Source: Bdellovibrio sp.
GTDB lineage: Bacteria; Bdellovibrionota; Bacteriovoracia; Bacteriovoracales; Bacteriovoracaceae
Direction: 5' to 3'
Length of the DNA: 64,000 nucleotides
Assembly: GCA_016187935.1 (NCBI GenBank)
Contig: JACPIU010000001.1
Location: 26,574 to 90,573 of the forward strand
Position numbers and translations under genes: made by a program. Below, piece by piece: positions 5,155-12,108 of the stretch (position 1 is the first letter of the stretch; the number at the start of each line of letters is the position of its first letter). The notes under the pieces are model-generated. The model did not search any database. It was not told the origin of the DNA and saw only the letters and a program-made list of their open reading frames with translations.

Positions 5155-5239
5155 AGATTTGCTATTCATGATTGGTGGATTTTTTTTGGCGGTGATAATT
5201 TTTGGTCTAACCATCTATTTTCGGAGTGGGGCCTTCTAA
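5147..5239 (+). CDS. Single-span membrane microprotein (30 aa)
   Basis: ATG 5147 overlaps the stop of the receiver-like gene by eight bases and opens a 30-residue frame: a charged start (MDKDLL), a continuous hydrophobic segment of about 18 residues, then an Arg and a stop. This is the profile of a small inner-membrane protein. Its 3' end runs 33 bases into the convergent hflX gene. Translational coupling to the upstream gene would explain the lack of its own ribosome-binding site. It could be a chance frame; conservation in relatives would decide. Confidence 0.4.
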   Translation: MDKDLLFMIGGFFLAVIIFGLTIYFRSGAF

Positions 5240-6568
5240 AACATTTTTCCATTCTGCCATCTTTGGATCATCAGGCATGAGGACGTAGGGGAAAAGACCC
5301 AACTCATCAAAGATAAAAGCGGGAATTCTAATACGATAGAAAATGCCTCGTTCGTGATTATGGGATTTTTCCACATTGGTGTTTTTAGCTACCTTGGCCA
5401 TGGCAGCACCTTGCTCATATGGAATAAATAAATCATAGAGGTTTTGTTTATCTAAAAAAGTTTTGCAGATGTGCTCTCGAAGCGAATTAACATCCTCAGA
5501 ATCAAAACTGCTCACAACAAGACATCCTGGATAAGCGCGAGCAATAATCTTGGCCATATGCGGGGAAGATAATTTGTCGCGCTTGTTGAATATGATTCTT
5601 TGTTCTCGCTGATCAATCCCTAACTCTTTTAGAATTTGCATCGTAACTTCAAGGTGCTTTTTATAATGAGGATCAGAAATATCGCAGACGATTAATATAA
5701 GATCGGCTTCAAGTGCCGACTCAAAAGTTGTTTTGAACCCCTCGACAAGGGTGCTTGGGAGATTAGAAATAAATCCCACTGTATCAATTAAAATCATCGG
5801 AGGGTGAGTGTCAGGATTGAGGGTGCGATGGGTAGGGTCTAGTGTGGCGAAAAGTTTATTTTCTTCCACCACATCAACTCGGCAAAGTCGATTCAAGAGG
5901 GATGATTTACCGGCATTCGTGTAACCAACCAGCGCCGCAATAACCGCTTTGTTTTTACGTTTTTTCTTCTGTTCTTCACGAGATTTTGCCACTAAATCAA
6001 GATCATTCTTAAGTGTTTCAATGCGACTGCGAACAATTCGTCGATCCAATTCGATTTGTTGTTCTCCCTCACCACCTCGAACGCCAACTCCACCGCGCTG
6101 GCGTGAAAAATGGGCCCAAAGACCTGCCAGGCGTGGTAACAGATATTGGAGACGAGCAATTTCAATTTGCAGTTTGGCTTCACGTGTTCTGGCATGACGG
6201 GCAAAAATTTCGAGAATGACATAAACCCGATCCATGACATCAAGACCGGTAATTTCCTTGATATTACGGGCCTGACCGGCGCTGAGTTCAAAATCAAAGA
6301 CTAAGAGATCAGATTTTTGGGCCCGCGCACTTTCGGCAATCTCTAAGAGCTTGCCACTTCCCAACACTGTGCCGGCATCGATTTCTGTTTTCCGTTGGAT
6401 AAACTCTTCTCCTGCCCTGATTCCGAGGGTACGCAAGAGTTCTCGAAGTTCAAGTAGAGAACGATCAGTTTCGTTTTGGTCTTCATGGCCTTTAACTTTA
6501 ACGTTGATAATTGACACTAATGTTGCGTGGGATCCTGCCCTGATTTGGTATTCGTGATCAATATTCAT
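5207..6568 (-). CDS. hflX: Ribosome-associated GTPase HflX
   Basis: A 453-residue GTPase of the HflX family, known to bind and split stalled 70S or 100S ribosomes. The N-terminal HflX domain contains the glycine-rich signature RGGVGVRGGEGE (about residues 158-169) followed by a DRR motif and a helical linker. The G domain has G1 GYTNAGKSS near 215, G3 DTVGFI near 260 and G4 NKRD near 328. A C-terminal extension follows. The start overlaps panC (ATGA), so hflX is the last gene of the coenzyme A operon. Its 3' end overlaps a possible microprotein on the other strand. Confidence 0.95.
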   Translation of the reverse strand: MNIDHEYQIRAGSHATLVSIINVKVKGHEDQNETDRSLLELRELLRTLGIRAGEEFIQRKTEIDAGTVLGSGKLLEIAESARAQKSDLLVFDFELSAGQARNIKEITGLDVMDRVYVILEIFARHARTREAKLQIEIARLQYLLPRLAGLWAHFSRQRGGVGVRGGEGEQQIELDRRIVRSRIETLKNDLDLVAKSREEQKKKRKNKAVIAALVGYTNAGKSSLLNRLCRVDVVEENKLFATLDPTHRTLNPDTHPPMILIDTVGFISNLPSTLVEGFKTTFESALEADLILIVCDISDPHYKKHLEVTMQILKELGIDQREQRIIFNKRDKLSSPHMAKIIARAYPGCLVVSSFDSEDVNSLREHICKTFLDKQNLYDLFIPYEQGAAMAKVAKNTNVEKSHNHERGIFYRIRIPAFIFDELGLFPYVLMPDDPKMAEWKNVLEGPTPKIDG

Positions 6569-7425
6569 TTTTTTTGCACTGTTATATTGTCAATCAAGCG
6601 CGTCTTGCCAACTTTCATTGCACCAGCAATCACCCACTCTTGAGTCGCTGCAGACGGCGGTCGTAAAGTGGAAGCATCCAGAATGTCTAAATATTGCCAT
6701 TCAACTTGTGAATCGGCCAGGGACTCCTTGATGAAATTCGTTAGCTTGCGATCGGTTGTATTGTGATGACATTCTTTGAATAGTTGAGCACTTAGAGTCA
6801 AAGTTGAAGGGAGTTTTAATGCCAGCTGACGATCATCTTTGTCCAAATATTGGTTGCGACTAGACAAGGCCAAACCGTCGTGGTCGCGAATAATAGGCAT
6901 GGAGATAATTTCAACCGGGATGTCGAGATCCAAAACCATGCGTCTGATGATTGCCAGTTGCTGGAAGTCCTTGGCGCCAAAATAGGCGCTGTGAGGTCGG
7001 GTAATGGAAAAAAGACGATAGACAACTGTGGCGACACCGTCAAAATGACCAGGTCTGAATTTTCCACACAATGGCCGACTAAGCTCTCCTAAAGAAATAG
7101 TGGTATCAAATCCGTCTGGATAGATATCTTGAGTCGTTTCAGGTGCATAAACCAAGCATGGACGACCATTGCTTACACGATCTAGCAATTCCAGATCATC
7201 TTCAAGAGTCCGAGGATATCGGTGGAAATCTTCGTTTGGTCCAAATTGCTTGGGATTAACAAAAATGGTTACGATCGTGACCTCATTACGATTCACAGAT
7301 GCCTGCACCAGTGAAGCATGACCTCTATGGAGGTTTCCCATCGTCGGAACCAGTCCCACTTTTTGAGTGTTCAGTGTTGCTCGCCTGACTTTAAGTTCGG
7401 ATGTTGAACGAATTAGTTCAACCAT
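6565..7425 (-). CDS. panC: Pantothenate synthetase
   Basis: PanC ligates pantoate and beta-alanine with ATP to give pantothenate. The 286-residue length is normal. The N-terminal nucleotide-binding motif VPTMGNLHRGHASLV (near residue 27) and the later SSRNQYL loop (near 187, the KMSKS-like element of the family) are both present, together with GQFRPGHFDGV-like substrate loop residues (KFRPGHFDGVATVV near 133). It overlaps coaBC upstream by 13 bases and hflX downstream by four. No panD (aspartate decarboxylase) is in the operon, so beta-alanine must come from elsewhere. Confidence 0.95.
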   Translation of the reverse strand: MVELIRSTSELKVRRATLNTQKVGLVPTMGNLHRGHASLVQASVNRNEVTIVTIFVNPKQFGPNEDFHRYPRTLEDDLELLDRVSNGRPCLVYAPETTQDIYPDGFDTTISLGELSRPLCGKFRPGHFDGVATVVYRLFSITRPHSAYFGAKDFQQLAIIRRMVLDLDIPVEIISMPIIRDHDGLALSSRNQYLDKDDRQLALKLPSTLTLSAQLFKECHHNTTDRKLTNFIKESLADSQVEWQYLDILDASTLRPPSAATQEWVIAGAMKVGKTRLIDNITVQKK

Positions 7426-8657
7426 AGATTTACCTTGTTTAAGATTTCTTGTGCTAGTGCCGTTTTATGGAGGGCACCTTGAAAAGTGATTTGTCCATTT
7501 TCAAAAAAACAATATTCGGCATGATCAGTTTTAAATCCGCTGTTCTGATTGTTTTGAATTTGTCCATTGTGCACTTTGGTTCCAATCAAGAGATCCACCG
7601 GTTTCTTGTGGTACTTTTCTCGTAAAACATTTTCCGTCAGATCGGTTTCTGCCGCAAAACCAATGAGGTGTTGTTTGGGCCCTTTCATCTGGAGGGCCCG
7701 GGCCAAAACATCCGGCGCTTGCATTATGGTCAGGTTTTCAGGGAGAGAAGATTTTTTGAGCTTCCCTGCCCATGTCTCTTTAAAAAGAATATCTCCAATG
7801 GCCGCAGCAGAAATGTAGATAGCATGCTTCGGCCATAGAGTTTCAACCGAATTCAAAAAATCATTGGGGGTATCAAGAGAATGGAGTTTGACCCCGGGAA
7901 GATGGCGTAGATTTTTAATTCTCTCTGTGGAATATCGGCCATGTAAAATAGTGATGGGATGGCCTTGTCGATGGGCCTCTTGTGCCAGGAAGAGGCCGGT
8001 TATCCCAGATGATGGATTGGTCAGAAAGCGAACTGGATCGAGGGGAACCACCGTGGCGCCGGTAGAAATCAAAATACCAGGTTTGTTTATCAGACTCGCC
8101 GGCGTGGCAAATGGAATGGTGTCGAGCAACGTTTCCACCGAAGGGAGTTTCCCCTGACCTTCATCGCCACACACCAATTCTCCTTCCATCGGAGGATGAA
8201 GAAAAACATCTGAACATTTTTGAAGATGCTGACAATTTTCTTGAACAATCGGATTGTTCCACATCAATACGTTCATAGCAGGGTAAAGCAAGAGTGGGGT
8301 ACCCTGACGTCTGGCCAAGACCACTGAACAAAGCAAATCGTCCGCCATCCCGTGCGCAACTTTTGCCAAGGTATTTGCCGACAATGGGGCGAGCACTATC
8401 CGGTCGGCCCATTTTGCCAAATTAATATGCAGAACCGGTCCGGGAAGATCTTGGGATGATTGAGATTTGAAATCATCTTGTGGGCCATACACGGCTTCAG
8501 CTCCCAGGTATTTGAATACTTCGGGCCGAACAAATTCCAATCCACCTTTGGTGAGAATAATACGAATTTTGTGACCGGCCTTGACCAGTCCACGAGTGAC
8601 ATCCAAGATGCGATAGGCCGCAACGGAACCTGTTACCCCGATCAAAATGTTGGACAT
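7413..8657 (-). CDS. coaBC: Bifunctional phosphopantothenoylcysteine synthetase/decarboxylase
   Basis: CoaBC joins cysteine to phosphopantothenate (CoaB) and decarboxylates the product (CoaC). The N-terminal flavoprotein CoaC half shows IGVTGSVAAY at the start, PLSANTLAKVAHGMADDLL near 92-110, the PAMN motif near 126 and a Cys-containing flap GELVCGDEGQG near 160. The CoaB half begins near residue 190 with STGATVVPLDPVRFLTN and contains ISAAAIGD near 285. It has 414 residues, normal for the fusion. Both ends overlap neighbouring CoA genes, indicating one transcript and coupled translation. Confidence 0.95.
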   Translation of the reverse strand: MSNILIGVTGSVAAYRILDVTRGLVKAGHKIRIILTKGGLEFVRPEVFKYLGAEAVYGPQDDFKSQSSQDLPGPVLHINLAKWADRIVLAPLSANTLAKVAHGMADDLLCSVVLARRQGTPLLLYPAMNVLMWNNPIVQENCQHLQKCSDVFLHPPMEGELVCGDEGQGKLPSVETLLDTIPFATPASLINKPGILISTGATVVPLDPVRFLTNPSSGITGLFLAQEAHRQGHPITILHGRYSTERIKNLRHLPGVKLHSLDTPNDFLNSVETLWPKHAIYISAAAIGDILFKETWAGKLKKSSLPENLTIMQAPDVLARALQMKGPKQHLIGFAAETDLTENVLREKYHKKPVDLLIGTKVHNGQIQNNQNSGFKTDHAEYCFFENGQITFQGALHKTALAQEILNKVNLWLN

Positions 8658-9454
8658 AGCGGCTCCTTTATGGCGGGTGAGAGATTGGGATGATCTGTTG
8701 CTAACATCTTTGCGGCCAAAGAAAGAAGGGCGTAATGAATGAGGTGCTGTCGTACCTCGATCGTGACAGGTGATTTTTGTTCAGTGATAATTTCTTGAAT
8801 CAGAGGTCGTAAGTTTTGGGCCTGTCCACCAGTTAAAATTATTTTATCGGGACAATATTGTCGAAACCATTGACTAAAAAAACCTTCCATCATTTTCCAT
8901 ACCCCGAGTCCCATAGCGTGAGGAGTTGTTTGGGGCAGTTCTTTTTTCCTTTGATAGAAGGACAAAAGTTGATCCAGTGAAAGCGCCGAGAGTTTTGCCC
9001 CTTGCTCGAAACTGCGGGCCAATAAATTCAGACCTGGGATAATGTGCCCGCCCTCAAATCCCTGTTCCGTTATCAAGTCGACGGTTGTGAATGTCCCACT
9101 ATCGATAAGCTGTACAGTTTTATTGGAAGGCCGATCTGTTATGGAGAAAAATTCATTGAATAATTCGTGGGCCTGGACCAGCCGATCGGAACCAAGTGTG
9201 GTGGCATAATGCACTGGCATGTTAAAGAACTGGCCTGCGGAAAAATAATCCATGGGTGAACGCAGATTTAATTCATTGGCAATTTCTGGAGACAAATGAG
9301 GACGAACTTCAGCGCAAATATTGATGGACCCATCAAGACGAGGACCTTGCAAGAATTGAGCAAGGGGCACGACTTGTTTCAATTCGTTATTTATAAATTC
9401 CCCCACGCATGGGTGGGAATTACCCAGATCAAGAGTGTAGATGGCAAATTTCAT
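8642..9454 (-). CDS. coaX: Type III pantothenate kinase
   Basis: A 270-residue ASKHA-fold kinase that phosphorylates pantothenate. Family motifs are slightly divergent but all in place: DLGNSH (usually DxGNT) at residues 9-14, GSDR near 89 and DSGTFTTVD near 118 (usually DAGTAxTxD), with GGHIIPG near 135. Replacement of the first Thr by Ser and DAGT by DSGT are conservative. The operon position between panB and coaBC supports the call strongly. It overlaps panB by 26 bases upstream and coaBC by 16 downstream. Confidence 0.88.
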   Translation of the reverse strand: MKFAIYTLDLGNSHPCVGEFINNELKQVVPLAQFLQGPRLDGSINICAEVRPHLSPEIANELNLRSPMDYFSAGQFFNMPVHYATTLGSDRLVQAHELFNEFFSITDRPSNKTVQLIDSGTFTTVDLITEQGFEGGHIIPGLNLLARSFEQGAKLSALSLDQLLSFYQRKKELPQTTPHAMGLGVWKMMEGFFSQWFRQYCPDKIILTGGQAQNLRPLIQEIITEQKSPVTIEVRQHLIHYALLSLAAKMLATDHPNLSPAIKEPLCPTF

Positions 9455-10277
9455 TATGTATTGTTGGAGTAGGTGGAAGGTTTAATGTCTCTAAATATTG
9501 TGTGATGGCCTCTTTTTTTAAACTATAAAAGTCAGCCACAGGTTGGCAAAATTTAGGCGGTCGGTTAGGTCCCATTTTGAGAAGATCATTAATCACCAGG
9601 ATTTGGCCATCAACACTTTGTCCAGCTCCAATGCCAATCGTTGGAACAGTGACGAGCGCAGTAATTTCTGCTGCGACATTTTTTTCAATGCATTCAAGGA
9701 CAATGGCAAAGACACCGGCCTTTTCCAAGGACTGGGCCTCTCGCAGAAGGCGTTCACGTGAGGCTTCGTTTTTACCGTGTTGATAGTGTCCCCCGAGTGC
9801 ATGAACAGATTGAGGAATGAGGCCAATGTGTCCCATGACGGGAACACCGGAATCGGTGATGCGTGAAATAATTTCTAGAACATGAGGGAAAGCACCTTCT
9901 AATTTGACAGCTTCGGCGCGACAAGTTTGGAAAAGGCGAAGACAGTTTTCAACACCTTGGTTAAATGTTGCGTAAGTTCCAAAGGGCATATCCATAATCA
10001 GAAATTTATCAGGGGCCCCACGCCGCACGGCCTTGCCAAAAATTTCCATCTCACCTAACTCAACGCTAATGGTGTGATCGTAACCTAAAATGACGTTACC
10101 CAGACTGTCACCGACTAAGATAATATCGAGATTGGTTTCGTTTAAGAGTTGGGCAGTTTGAAAATCATAGCAGGTGAGTGCGGAAATTTGCGGGCGAATA
10201 GGATTCTTTTTCCAGTTTCTCAGGTCTCTGGTTGTCAGCTTTTTAACCGTGCTGCTGATTGTGCTATAACTCGACAC
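9429..10277 (-). CDS. panB: 3-methyl-2-oxobutanoate hydroxymethyltransferase
   Basis: PanB makes ketopantoate from alpha-ketoisovalerate using methylene-tetrahydrofolate. The 282-residue protein has the barrel motifs ALTCYDFQTAQL near 33, VGDSLGNVILGYDHT near 56 (metal-binding Asp), DMPFGTY near 98, KLEGA near 125, GHIGLIPQSVHALGG near 150 and IGIGAG near 215. Its start lies inside the end of the KARI-like gene (14-base overlap). The product, ketopantoate, must be reduced before PanC can act. No panE-type gene lies in the window, which makes the upstream reductase the natural candidate. Confidence 0.95.
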   Translation of the reverse strand: MSSYSTISSTVKKLTTRDLRNWKKNPIRPQISALTCYDFQTAQLLNETNLDIILVGDSLGNVILGYDHTISVELGEMEIFGKAVRRGAPDKFLIMDMPFGTYATFNQGVENCLRLFQTCRAEAVKLEGAFPHVLEIISRITDSGVPVMGHIGLIPQSVHALGGHYQHGKNEASRERLLREAQSLEKAGVFAIVLECIEKNVAAEITALVTVPTIGIGAGQSVDGQILVINDLLKMGPNRPPKFCQPVADFYSLKKEAITQYLETLNLPPTPTIHNEICHLHS

Positions 10278-11232
10278 CTTTTTTCTCCATACGCTTGTGA
10301 ATCTGGGCCAGATTTGTCGCTGCCCAATCGGCAGTGATGCGTTGCCTTAGCGTCTCAAAGTCTTGCTCCACAATTTCTTTAAAAAATTCCCCGGACCAGA
10401 TGTCATCAGCTAGTGTATCTAGCTTGTGATGGAATGACTTGTCAAAAATGATGTGGCGCGCCTTCTCGCCGCCATAAAGGGCATTTGGGCTTATTAGGCG
10501 ATGAAAATTGTCTGGACCGAACTTAATCATGGCATCTGCAATAAGCTTAACTTCTCGCCAGCACTCTAAGTAGGCGACTTCTCGTGAGATCCCGCGTTCA
10601 ACCATCTTTTCGAAGACTATTCTGGCCCCGTAAGGCAAAAGTGAGCACAGGAGGGCCTGTTCAGAGAAGAGATCGGCGAGAGTTTCTTCGCGAAAGGTGC
10701 TTTTAAAGGGGCCTTGATTAATCCCCAATTCCTTGGCCAAAAAGAGTAGGAGGGTTTCCGCAGTCTTAGCATCCTGGAGATTATGGCCCTCCGTGGAATA
10801 CACCGCTGCCAAGGGTTCACGGGAAAGATAATTGGCCCTCACTTCACTGGCAATTGCTTTCGGGGCGAGCAGTAAATGAGACCAGTTTGGATAAACGGTT
10901 TTCCATGCATGTTGGGTATAGCTGACGCCATGGGCGTAAATGAAAGTCAGTGGTACATCTTCGGCCAGTTGAGCAAAAAATTTCAACATTTCTTCGTGAG
11001 TGTGATCGGGAATGAGCATGACAAAAATGTCATTAGGTTGGGGGTGCCATTCTTGCAAGAACATAATGGGAAGGTCGAGTTTTTGGGCCGCTTGAAGGGA
11101 GTTACTTTTCTCTCGGAATAATATTTTGAAGGTTAGCTTTTGGTCGCGCCAGTTTTGGGCCCAGGCCTTGCCTTGAGACCCGAGTCCCAGAATAAAAAGT
11201 CTTTTTTGATGAAGAGGATTGGGCATATACAT
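10264..11232 (-). CDS. Ketol-acid reductoisomerase-family protein, probable ketopantoate reductase
   Basis: First gene of the CoA operon, 322 residues, clearly an IlvC (KARI) homologue but divergent. The dinucleotide loop GLGSQGKAWAQN lies near 16-27, the AHG motif near 101 and APKAIASEVR near 124 (classical IlvC has APKGPGH). The metal ligands of the knotted domain appear kept: an Asp and Glu in ADLFSEQ near 188-194 and two Glu four apart in LECWREVKLI near 225. IlvC is known to reduce ketopantoate as a side activity in several bacteria. Here its place directly before panB and the missing panE imply that this copy is dedicated to pantoate synthesis. That role is inference; a branched-chain amino acid role is possible but no ilv gene is near. 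ATG 11232 is preceded by AAGG. Confidence 0.8.
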   Translation of the reverse strand: MYMPNPLHQKRLFILGLGSQGKAWAQNWRDQKLTFKILFREKSNSLQAAQKLDLPIMFLQEWHPQPNDIFVMLIPDHTHEEMLKFFAQLAEDVPLTFIYAHGVSYTQHAWKTVYPNWSHLLLAPKAIASEVRANYLSREPLAAVYSTEGHNLQDAKTAETLLLFLAKELGINQGPFKSTFREETLADLFSEQALLCSLLPYGARIVFEKMVERGISREVAYLECWREVKLIADAMIKFGPDNFHRLISPNALYGGEKARHIIFDKSFHHKLDTLADDIWSGEFFKEIVEQDFETLRQRITADWAATNLAQIHKRMEKKGVEL

Positions 11233-11283: not shown

Positions 11284-12108
11284 TTGGCCACGACCGTCTA
11301 TCGCTATTTTGGCAATGAAATCGAAAAGATTGATCAATTTAATGCTTCATTTCTCTATGGTGATTTAATTTTTAGTACTTTTCGCGCCTTTGGGAGTCTG
11401 GTTCCATGGTGGAAGCATCATATTGAAAGGCTTAAATGCGGAGCTTCTTTTCTGCAGGTTCATCCAAATTGGAATCTGATTTTGCATGATTTAGAAGATG
11501 GCAAGTCTAAATTGGTGCAGCATTTTCATGCTCATGAATGGATTGGTCGACCCACTCTGAGAAAAAAAGAGAATGACTTACAGCTAATGTTCTTCGCTTG
11601 GGAGGTGCCAGCTCTACAACAATCATCGCAAAAGCTTGCAGTGGCGTTGTCAGAGAGGAAGCGGGTATTACCATCAGAAATAAAGGGTGGAGATTACATC
11701 ATTGAAAATCAAGGAAAGCAATGGGCGACCGAAATGGGCATGGATGATATTCTTTTTTGGCAGGGGTCAGAAAAAAAAATTAGCGAAACTAGCAGTAGTA
11801 ATGTCTTCTTTGTCGATGATCATGAAGAGATACTAACTCCCTCCACTGTTGATGGAAACTGTTTATCGGGAATTACCCGAAAGCAGGTGATTGCCATGGT
11901 AAAACGTTTAGGTCTTAAAGTGAGCGAGAGAGAAATTTGCTTAACAGAATTGGGTCATTTTCGGGAAGCATTTTTAACCAATTGTGGGCAATTCATTCGT
12001 CCAGTGGGACAGATTGATAATAGTTTTTTTTCCTCCGCACATGACAATTCCTTGACCAACAAGTTAAAGAAGGAATTAAATTTTTGTATCCATGGTAGCG
12101 ATGTGTAA
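11284..12108 (+). CDS. Class IV PLP aminotransferase/lyase (aminodeoxychorismate lyase-like)
   Basis: A 274-residue fold-type IV PLP enzyme. The usual landmarks are seen: an N-terminal FSTFRAFGSLVPWWKHHIERLK segment split around the active site entrance, a Lys-Gly-Gly segment near 138 as likely Schiff-base lysine, SETSSSNVFFV near 167 and GNCLSGITRKQVI near 193. Members include branched-chain transaminase, D-amino acid transaminase and PabC; the short length and SSNVFFV/GITR pattern fit PabC-like enzymes best, but this cannot be settled by eye. The start is TTG 11284, chosen because AGGAGGAG lies just before it. It begins a plus-strand operon with yacG and the phosphatase, and is divergent from the CoA operon. 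Confidence 0.8.
   Translation: MATTVYRYFGNEIEKIDQFNASFLYGDLIFSTFRAFGSLVPWWKHHIERLKCGASFLQVHPNWNLILHDLEDGKSKLVQHFHAHEWIGRPTLRKKENDLQLMFFAWEVPALQQSSQKLAVALSERKRVLPSEIKGGDYIIENQGKQWATEMGMDDILFWQGSEKKISETSSSNVFFVDDHEEILTPSTVDGNCLSGITRKQVIAMVKRLGLKVSEREICLTELGHFREAFLTNCGQFIRPVGQIDNSFFSSAHDNSLTNKLKKELNFCIHGSDV

Follow-up and report, generated by a model that had tools for sequence, protein, structure and literature searches.

A relative of ketol-acid reductoisomerase in the coenzyme A operon of Bacteriovorax-group predators is predicted to be a dedicated ketopantoate reductase

RESULTS

The operon and its genome

The gene that heads a coenzyme A operon in this Bdellovibrio sp. genome most probably descends from the ketol-acid reductoisomerase (KARI) family and codes for a ketopantoate (2-dehydropantoate) 2-reductase dedicated to that reaction. 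We infer this activity from genomic evidence and give the reading a probability of about 0.88. In its genomic role the gene corresponds to ketopantoate reductase (EC 1.1.1.169), as it occupies the one vacant step from PanB to PanC and can be replaced by PanG.

The operon lies in the window, the whole 64,000-nucleotide stretch of DNA that was analyzed. Pfam searches of the window's open reading frames recovered all six genes that an earlier note on this DNA had listed, in the order KARI-panB-coaX-coaBC-panC-hflX on a single strand (Table 1). The overlaps described there are also present, with adjacent frames sharing 4 to 26 bp at every junction, given the start codons as called. The coaX gene is very divergent by its PF03309 score, yet it is conserved within the operon. 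In 57 of 66 related loci the class IV aminotransferase gene points away from the KARI gene; it could supply 2-ketoisovalerate from valine or encode a PabC-like lyase. Scans for promoters and terminators returned matches at chance level only.

Table 1. Genes of the coenzyme A operon and its divergent neighbor, in positions of the window.
Feature	Positions	Strand	Remarks
KARI-family protein, proposed dedicated ketopantoate reductase	10264..11232	-	First operon gene; 322 aa, ATG start as called
panB, ketopantoate hydroxymethyltransferase	9429..10277	-	Pfam; GTG start as called; 14 bp overlap with KARI gene
coaX, type III pantothenate kinase, divergent	8642..9454	-	56 bits to PF03309; short of all NCBIfam cut-offs for type III kinases
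coaBC	7413..8657	-	Pfam
panC, pantoate-beta-alanine ligase	6565..7425	-	Pfam
hflX GTPase, final gene of conserved block	5207..6568	-	Pfam
Class IV aminotransferase, divergent neighbor of KARI gene	11284..12108	+	Role putative; under all NCBIfam cut-offs

We searched the assembly of this genome (4.4 Mb, 48 contigs, 99.25% complete) for the enzymes that could act at the same step. It encodes exactly one KARI, the operon gene, and has no ApbA_C match that would indicate panE and no DUF2520 match that would indicate PanG. Ketopantoate reductase had been named as the only missing step of the operon, and the genome-wide search agrees with this; the KARI is the sole candidate among the tested families for the single step missing between panB and panC. 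No ilvD was found in the genome, and its best IlvB-like thiamine pyrophosphate (TPP) enzyme scores 311 bits against an IlvB cut-off of 538; therefore, the KARI cannot serve branched-chain amino-acid synthesis, and acetohydroxy acids cannot be its natural substrates on that route. A canonical branched-chain aminotransferase (BCAT) is encoded elsewhere in the genome. Aspartate decarboxylase (panD, PF02261) was not found in the genome, though panC is present, and beta-alanine must come from a source other than PanD.

Domains, fold, and active site

The protein matches KARI_N (PF07991) at 61.4 bits and KARI_C (PF01450) at 92 bits, above the Pfam gathering cut-offs of 20.6 and 29.1, respectively, and it has no Pfam match to the ApbA domains or DUF2520. 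It falls below all NCBIfam ilvC equivalog cut-offs (157.6 versus 336 bits and 145.7 versus 226 bits). KARIs are its best relatives by sequence in the PDB, and its predicted fold is that of a KARI (AlphaFold pLDDT 95.5). The 50 best PDB structure matches are all KARIs, including BurG and, among the best, the Corynebacterium glutamicum enzyme, with TM scores up to 0.85. The protein is a member of the KARI superfamily that lies outside the IlvC equivalog, PanE, and PanG.

All eight catalytic polar positions of KARIs are retained, as H101, K125, E183, D187, E191, E223, E227, and S248; we take their Escherichia coli counterparts to be H132, K155, E213, D217, E221, E389, E393, and S414. The metal set of one Asp and three Glu reported earlier is among them. 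These eight residues are invariant across 68 members of the window's family, with the exception of one locus (L074), which has N at two metal-ligand positions. Beside the catalytic residues, the pocket differs consistently from that of IlvC: P127-G128 becomes I-A/G, the GG at 197-198 becomes S-L, T250 becomes N, E252 becomes L, L234 becomes A/T, and L225 becomes W.

The earlier note had contrasted the motif APKAIASEVR with APKGPGH of IlvC and concluded that the active site has drifted. The motif is present, and the contrast is true of class I IlvC; since class II IlvC of E. coli presumably reads APKCPGTEVR, only PG is truly replaced, by IA. Drift likewise describes the pocket motifs and not the catalytic residues, and we rejected the reading of the altered motif as a sign that catalysis is lost, because all eight polar residues are intact. 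A changed pocket around a conserved catalytic set is the pattern that would be expected for a new substrate handled by the same chemistry. The loop residues R40, S43, and S45 resemble those of NADPH-binding KARIs, which suggests a similar cofactor, and with the canonical catalytic set intact the enzyme might still show isomeroreductase activity in vitro.

Linkage to panB

Wherever both genes were recovered, in 76 loci from nine families, KARI immediately precedes panB and is read from the same strand. The gap between the two genes ranges from -91 to 63 bp, and they overlap in 50 of the 76 loci. Most of the window's family retains the order of the six genes, and the arrangement KARI-panB-(coaX)-coaBC-panC, complete or partial, occurs in eight other families. 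Two genomes of the window's family have a KARI apart from panB: G223 (L044) and G231 (L075).

A scan of 84,980 species' genomes found 74 loci, chiefly under Bacteriovoracaceae, Bacteriovorax, and Halobacteriovorax, using patterns of the window's family only, so that more distant pan-linked KARIs in other phyla were beyond its reach. A few of the 74 loci carry broader titles (Delta-, Epsilon-, or Proteobacteria). The nearest relative in the scan is in Bdellovibrionales bacterium GWA2_49_15 (78%). On plasmids, the best relatives reach an identity of only about 30%, and those with an annotation are called ilvC.

One genome of interest, G233, encodes two KARIs. One (L003) is of the IlvC type, scores above the NCBIfam ilvC cut-offs, and sits beside ilvD and ilvB; the other (L061) is of the window's type and sits within a pan operon. 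Therefore, the window's type is kept even alongside a real IlvC. In G229 (contig C96) and G233 (contig C92), ilvB, ilvD, and ilvC occur together on one contig, while the family is otherwise without branched-chain synthesis.

Replacement across the phylum

We counted the relevant genes in 241 Bdellovibrionota genomes. KARI is present in 100, panB in 210, DUF2520 in 105, ApbA_C in 13, and ilvD in 3. DUF2520 marks PanG, which was shown to be a ketopantoate reductase in Francisella according to a passage of PMC4572677 that cites Miller 2013. The 210 panB-bearing genomes divide into 98 with KARI only, 104 with DUF2520 only, 1 with both, and 7 with neither (Fisher p 7e-50, a rough guide because the genomes are not independent samples and the test ignores relatedness). 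Within the window's family the corresponding counts are 68, 8, 1, and 0 (p 4e-10, relatedness again ignored). The KARI of the single genome with both (G229) is the canonical ilvC that shares a contig with ilvB and ilvD. Three of the seven genomes with neither have PanE, and another (G036) leaves this class on account of a weak DUF2520 gene directly before panB (33 bits, above the cut-off). In total, 207 of the 210 panB-bearing genomes have KARI, DUF2520, or PanE.

The remaining three (G018, G045, and G158, with loci L222, L225, and L226, respectively) carry panB and gave no match to KARI, DUF2520, or ApbA_C; they have either an undetected fourth reductase or a broken pathway. The panB genes of G045 and G158 belong to the lineage that is paired elsewhere with the pan-linked KARI.

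The reductases are also lost together with panB. Genomes lacking panB almost never have KARI or DUF2520 (KARI in 1 of 31 across the phylum), and in the window's family KARI occurs in 69 of 77 genomes with panB and 0 of 6 without it (p=8e-6, ignoring relatedness). Within a single genus (g52, family f11), two genomes (G087 and G149) have KARI, five have DUF2520, and the three without panB have neither. The DUF2520 gene lies just upstream of panB in nearly all cases seen, with G021 as an exception. We gave no weight to the absence of panE by itself, since PanE is missing from most genomes of the phylum; the search for DUF2520 (PanG) settled the point.

Phylogeny of KARI and panB

In the KARI tree, 25 pan-linked sequences from nine families fall on one side of a branch with 100/98 support, although the branches inside the pan-linked side are long and attraction may be a partial cause. 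On the opposite side are 39 others, comprising IlvC of several bacterial phyla and archaea, orphan KARIs of the phylum that lie apart from panB, and KARIs from natural-product clusters. A tree constrained to place the window's group together with IlvC was rejected (p-AU 0.00017). The phylogeny called for by the earlier note thus separates the pan-linked KARIs from IlvC, and their specialization is best read as ancient. The panB tree has a 100/99 split between a lineage with the pan-linked KARI and a lineage with PanG or an unlinked KARI. We had considered exclusion gene by gene, but this tree shows that it is mainly whole operons that alternate, each type carrying one reductase of its own.

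In families f3, f4, f5, f9, f12, and f15, the KARI is encoded apart from panB, and ilvD and DUF2520 are absent. IlvB gave no match above the cut-off in the twelve unlinked-KARI genomes tested. In four of these KARIs (L018, L020, L022, and L023, families f4 and f12), a metal-ligand D is changed to N and an E to K or G, and these are possibly reductase-only enzymes. The unlinked KARIs may also be ketopantoate reductases, reached by a separate route; the neighbors of three that we inspected gave no functional clue. A different KARI-like kind (L077 in G223, L204, and L205) branches together near an archaeal KARI, and two of these genes are beside polyketide or peptide synthesis genes.

DISCUSSION

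We propose the following pathway. PanB would convert 2-ketoisovalerate to ketopantoate, the KARI-like enzyme would reduce the 2-keto group of ketopantoate with NAD(P)H to give pantoate, PanC would couple pantoate with beta-alanine, and CoaX and CoaBC would continue towards coenzyme A. Because there is no IlvD and no clear IlvB, valine, imported or derived from prey, is the probable source of the 2-ketoisovalerate, by way of the canonical BCAT. Ketopantoate resembles the enzyme-bound IlvC intermediate 3-hydroxy-3-methyl-2-ketobutyrate but for one additional CH2; therefore, only the reductase half of the KARI reaction would be needed. Gene content, linkage, the replacement pattern, the tree, the catalytic residues, and the predicted fold come directly from the analysis; from them we infer the substrate, the cofactor preference, the loss of isomerase function, and the source of 2-ketoisovalerate.

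A KARI-fold enzyme acting as ketopantoate reductase has precedent, as the earlier note had stated. IlvC has this activity in C. glutamicum and Buchnera, neither of which has panE (PMC4306246), and in Bacillus subtilis (PMC11487621); a passage of PMC4353338 cites the same for Salmonella. In C. glutamicum, Buchnera, and B. subtilis, a single IlvC covers both reactions, and branched-chain synthesis is intact. In contrast, the window's KARI, assigned this role from genes, belongs to its own operon-borne subfamily, and the branched-chain pathway is gone. It shares with class I IlvC (C. glutamicum 6jx2 and Campylobacter jejuni 8upq) the fold (TM 0.78 to 0.85), both Pfam domains, and the eight catalytic polar residues at 24 to 28% identity, but it scores under every ilvC equivalog cut-off, groups on the separate 100/98 branch, carries I[AG] for PG, N for T, L for E, and SL for GG near the active site, lacks the pathway partners, and sits in a coenzyme A operon. 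PanG, which fills the same step, is from a different protein family and has its gene just before panB in related genomes without KARI, whereas DUF2520 is absent from the window's protein and genome. PanE/ApbA has the same proposed reaction, and neither an ApbA domain in the protein nor ApbA_C in the genome was detected. BurG (7pce) and KARI-like enzymes of natural-product clusters likewise show the fold put to use in a new reaction; of the cluster enzymes, L077, L204, and L205 fall on the IlvC side of the tree, away from the pan-linked KARIs. Among open-licence papers, a scope that makes this weak evidence, we came upon no account of such a dedicated KARI subfamily, carried in an operon by organisms that lack the IlvC pathway, and no paper on Bdellovibrio ketol-acid reductoisomerase or Bacteriovorax pantothenate.

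Family membership, the fold, and the eight retained residues would also suit an ordinary IlvC that still works in valine and isoleucine synthesis, is in the operon by chance, and reduces ketopantoate as a side activity at most. We regard this as highly improbable, given scores far below all ilvC equivalog cut-offs and a genome without ilvD or an IlvB above the cut-off. The same holds more widely: ilvD is found in 3 of the 241 genomes, compared with 100 for KARI, and among 26 sampled genomes the IlvB cut-off is exceeded in just two, both of which carry ilvD and canonical ilvC on that contig as well. There is very little chance, too, of a double function in vivo, in which the enzyme would reduce ketopantoate and also process an acetohydroxy acid that the cell gets by another route. 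Every catalytic residue for isomerization is still there, and the genome encodes the divergent IlvB-like TPP enzyme, but without dihydroxyacid dehydratase the product would be a dead end for amino-acid synthesis, and metal-ligand residues have been lost in L074 (N at two positions) and in some of the phylum's KARIs that are not linked to panB (D to N, E to K/G).

KARIs show promiscuity as reductases (PMC4353338), which leaves room for a broad 2-keto-acid reductase, acting for example on 2-ketoisovalerate or other branched keto acids and cotranscribed with the pan genes, while another enzyme reduces ketopantoate. The three panB-bearing genomes that have none of the three known or candidate reductases fit such a role, but an accessory activity would not be expected to alternate so cleanly with PanG or to be lost along with panB, and 207 of 210 panB-bearing genomes have KARI, DUF2520, or PanE; we consider it improbable. 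The prediction of a dedicated ketopantoate reductase from the IlvC family, first made in the earlier note, is favored by the lack of panE, of a second KARI, and of ilvD and ilvB, the PanG replacement pattern, the linkage to panB, and the tree. We hold with less assurance, as somewhat more likely than not, the wider view that all pan-linked KARIs belong to one old enzyme family that, like PanE and PanG, is dedicated to ketopantoate reduction. In this view the enzyme family gave up acetohydroxy-acid isomeroreduction in the cell and spans at least nine Bdellovibrionota families, and other orphan KARIs independently did likewise, some of them losing metal ligands needed for isomerization.

Annotation by similarity would name this gene ilvC, wrongly implying branched-chain synthesis in predators without the pathway. 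If our reading is true, it would add a dedicated ketopantoate reductase family, account for the absence of panE from roughly half of the panB-bearing genomes in our sample of the phylum, and provide a clear example from nature of a side activity of a promiscuous enzyme turned into its sole job, with the isomerase half-reaction of KARI, freed from selection, open to comparative study. It looks as though Bacteriovorax-group predators, having lost branched-chain synthesis, kept an IlvC relative as the missing reductase of vitamin B5 and coenzyme A synthesis.
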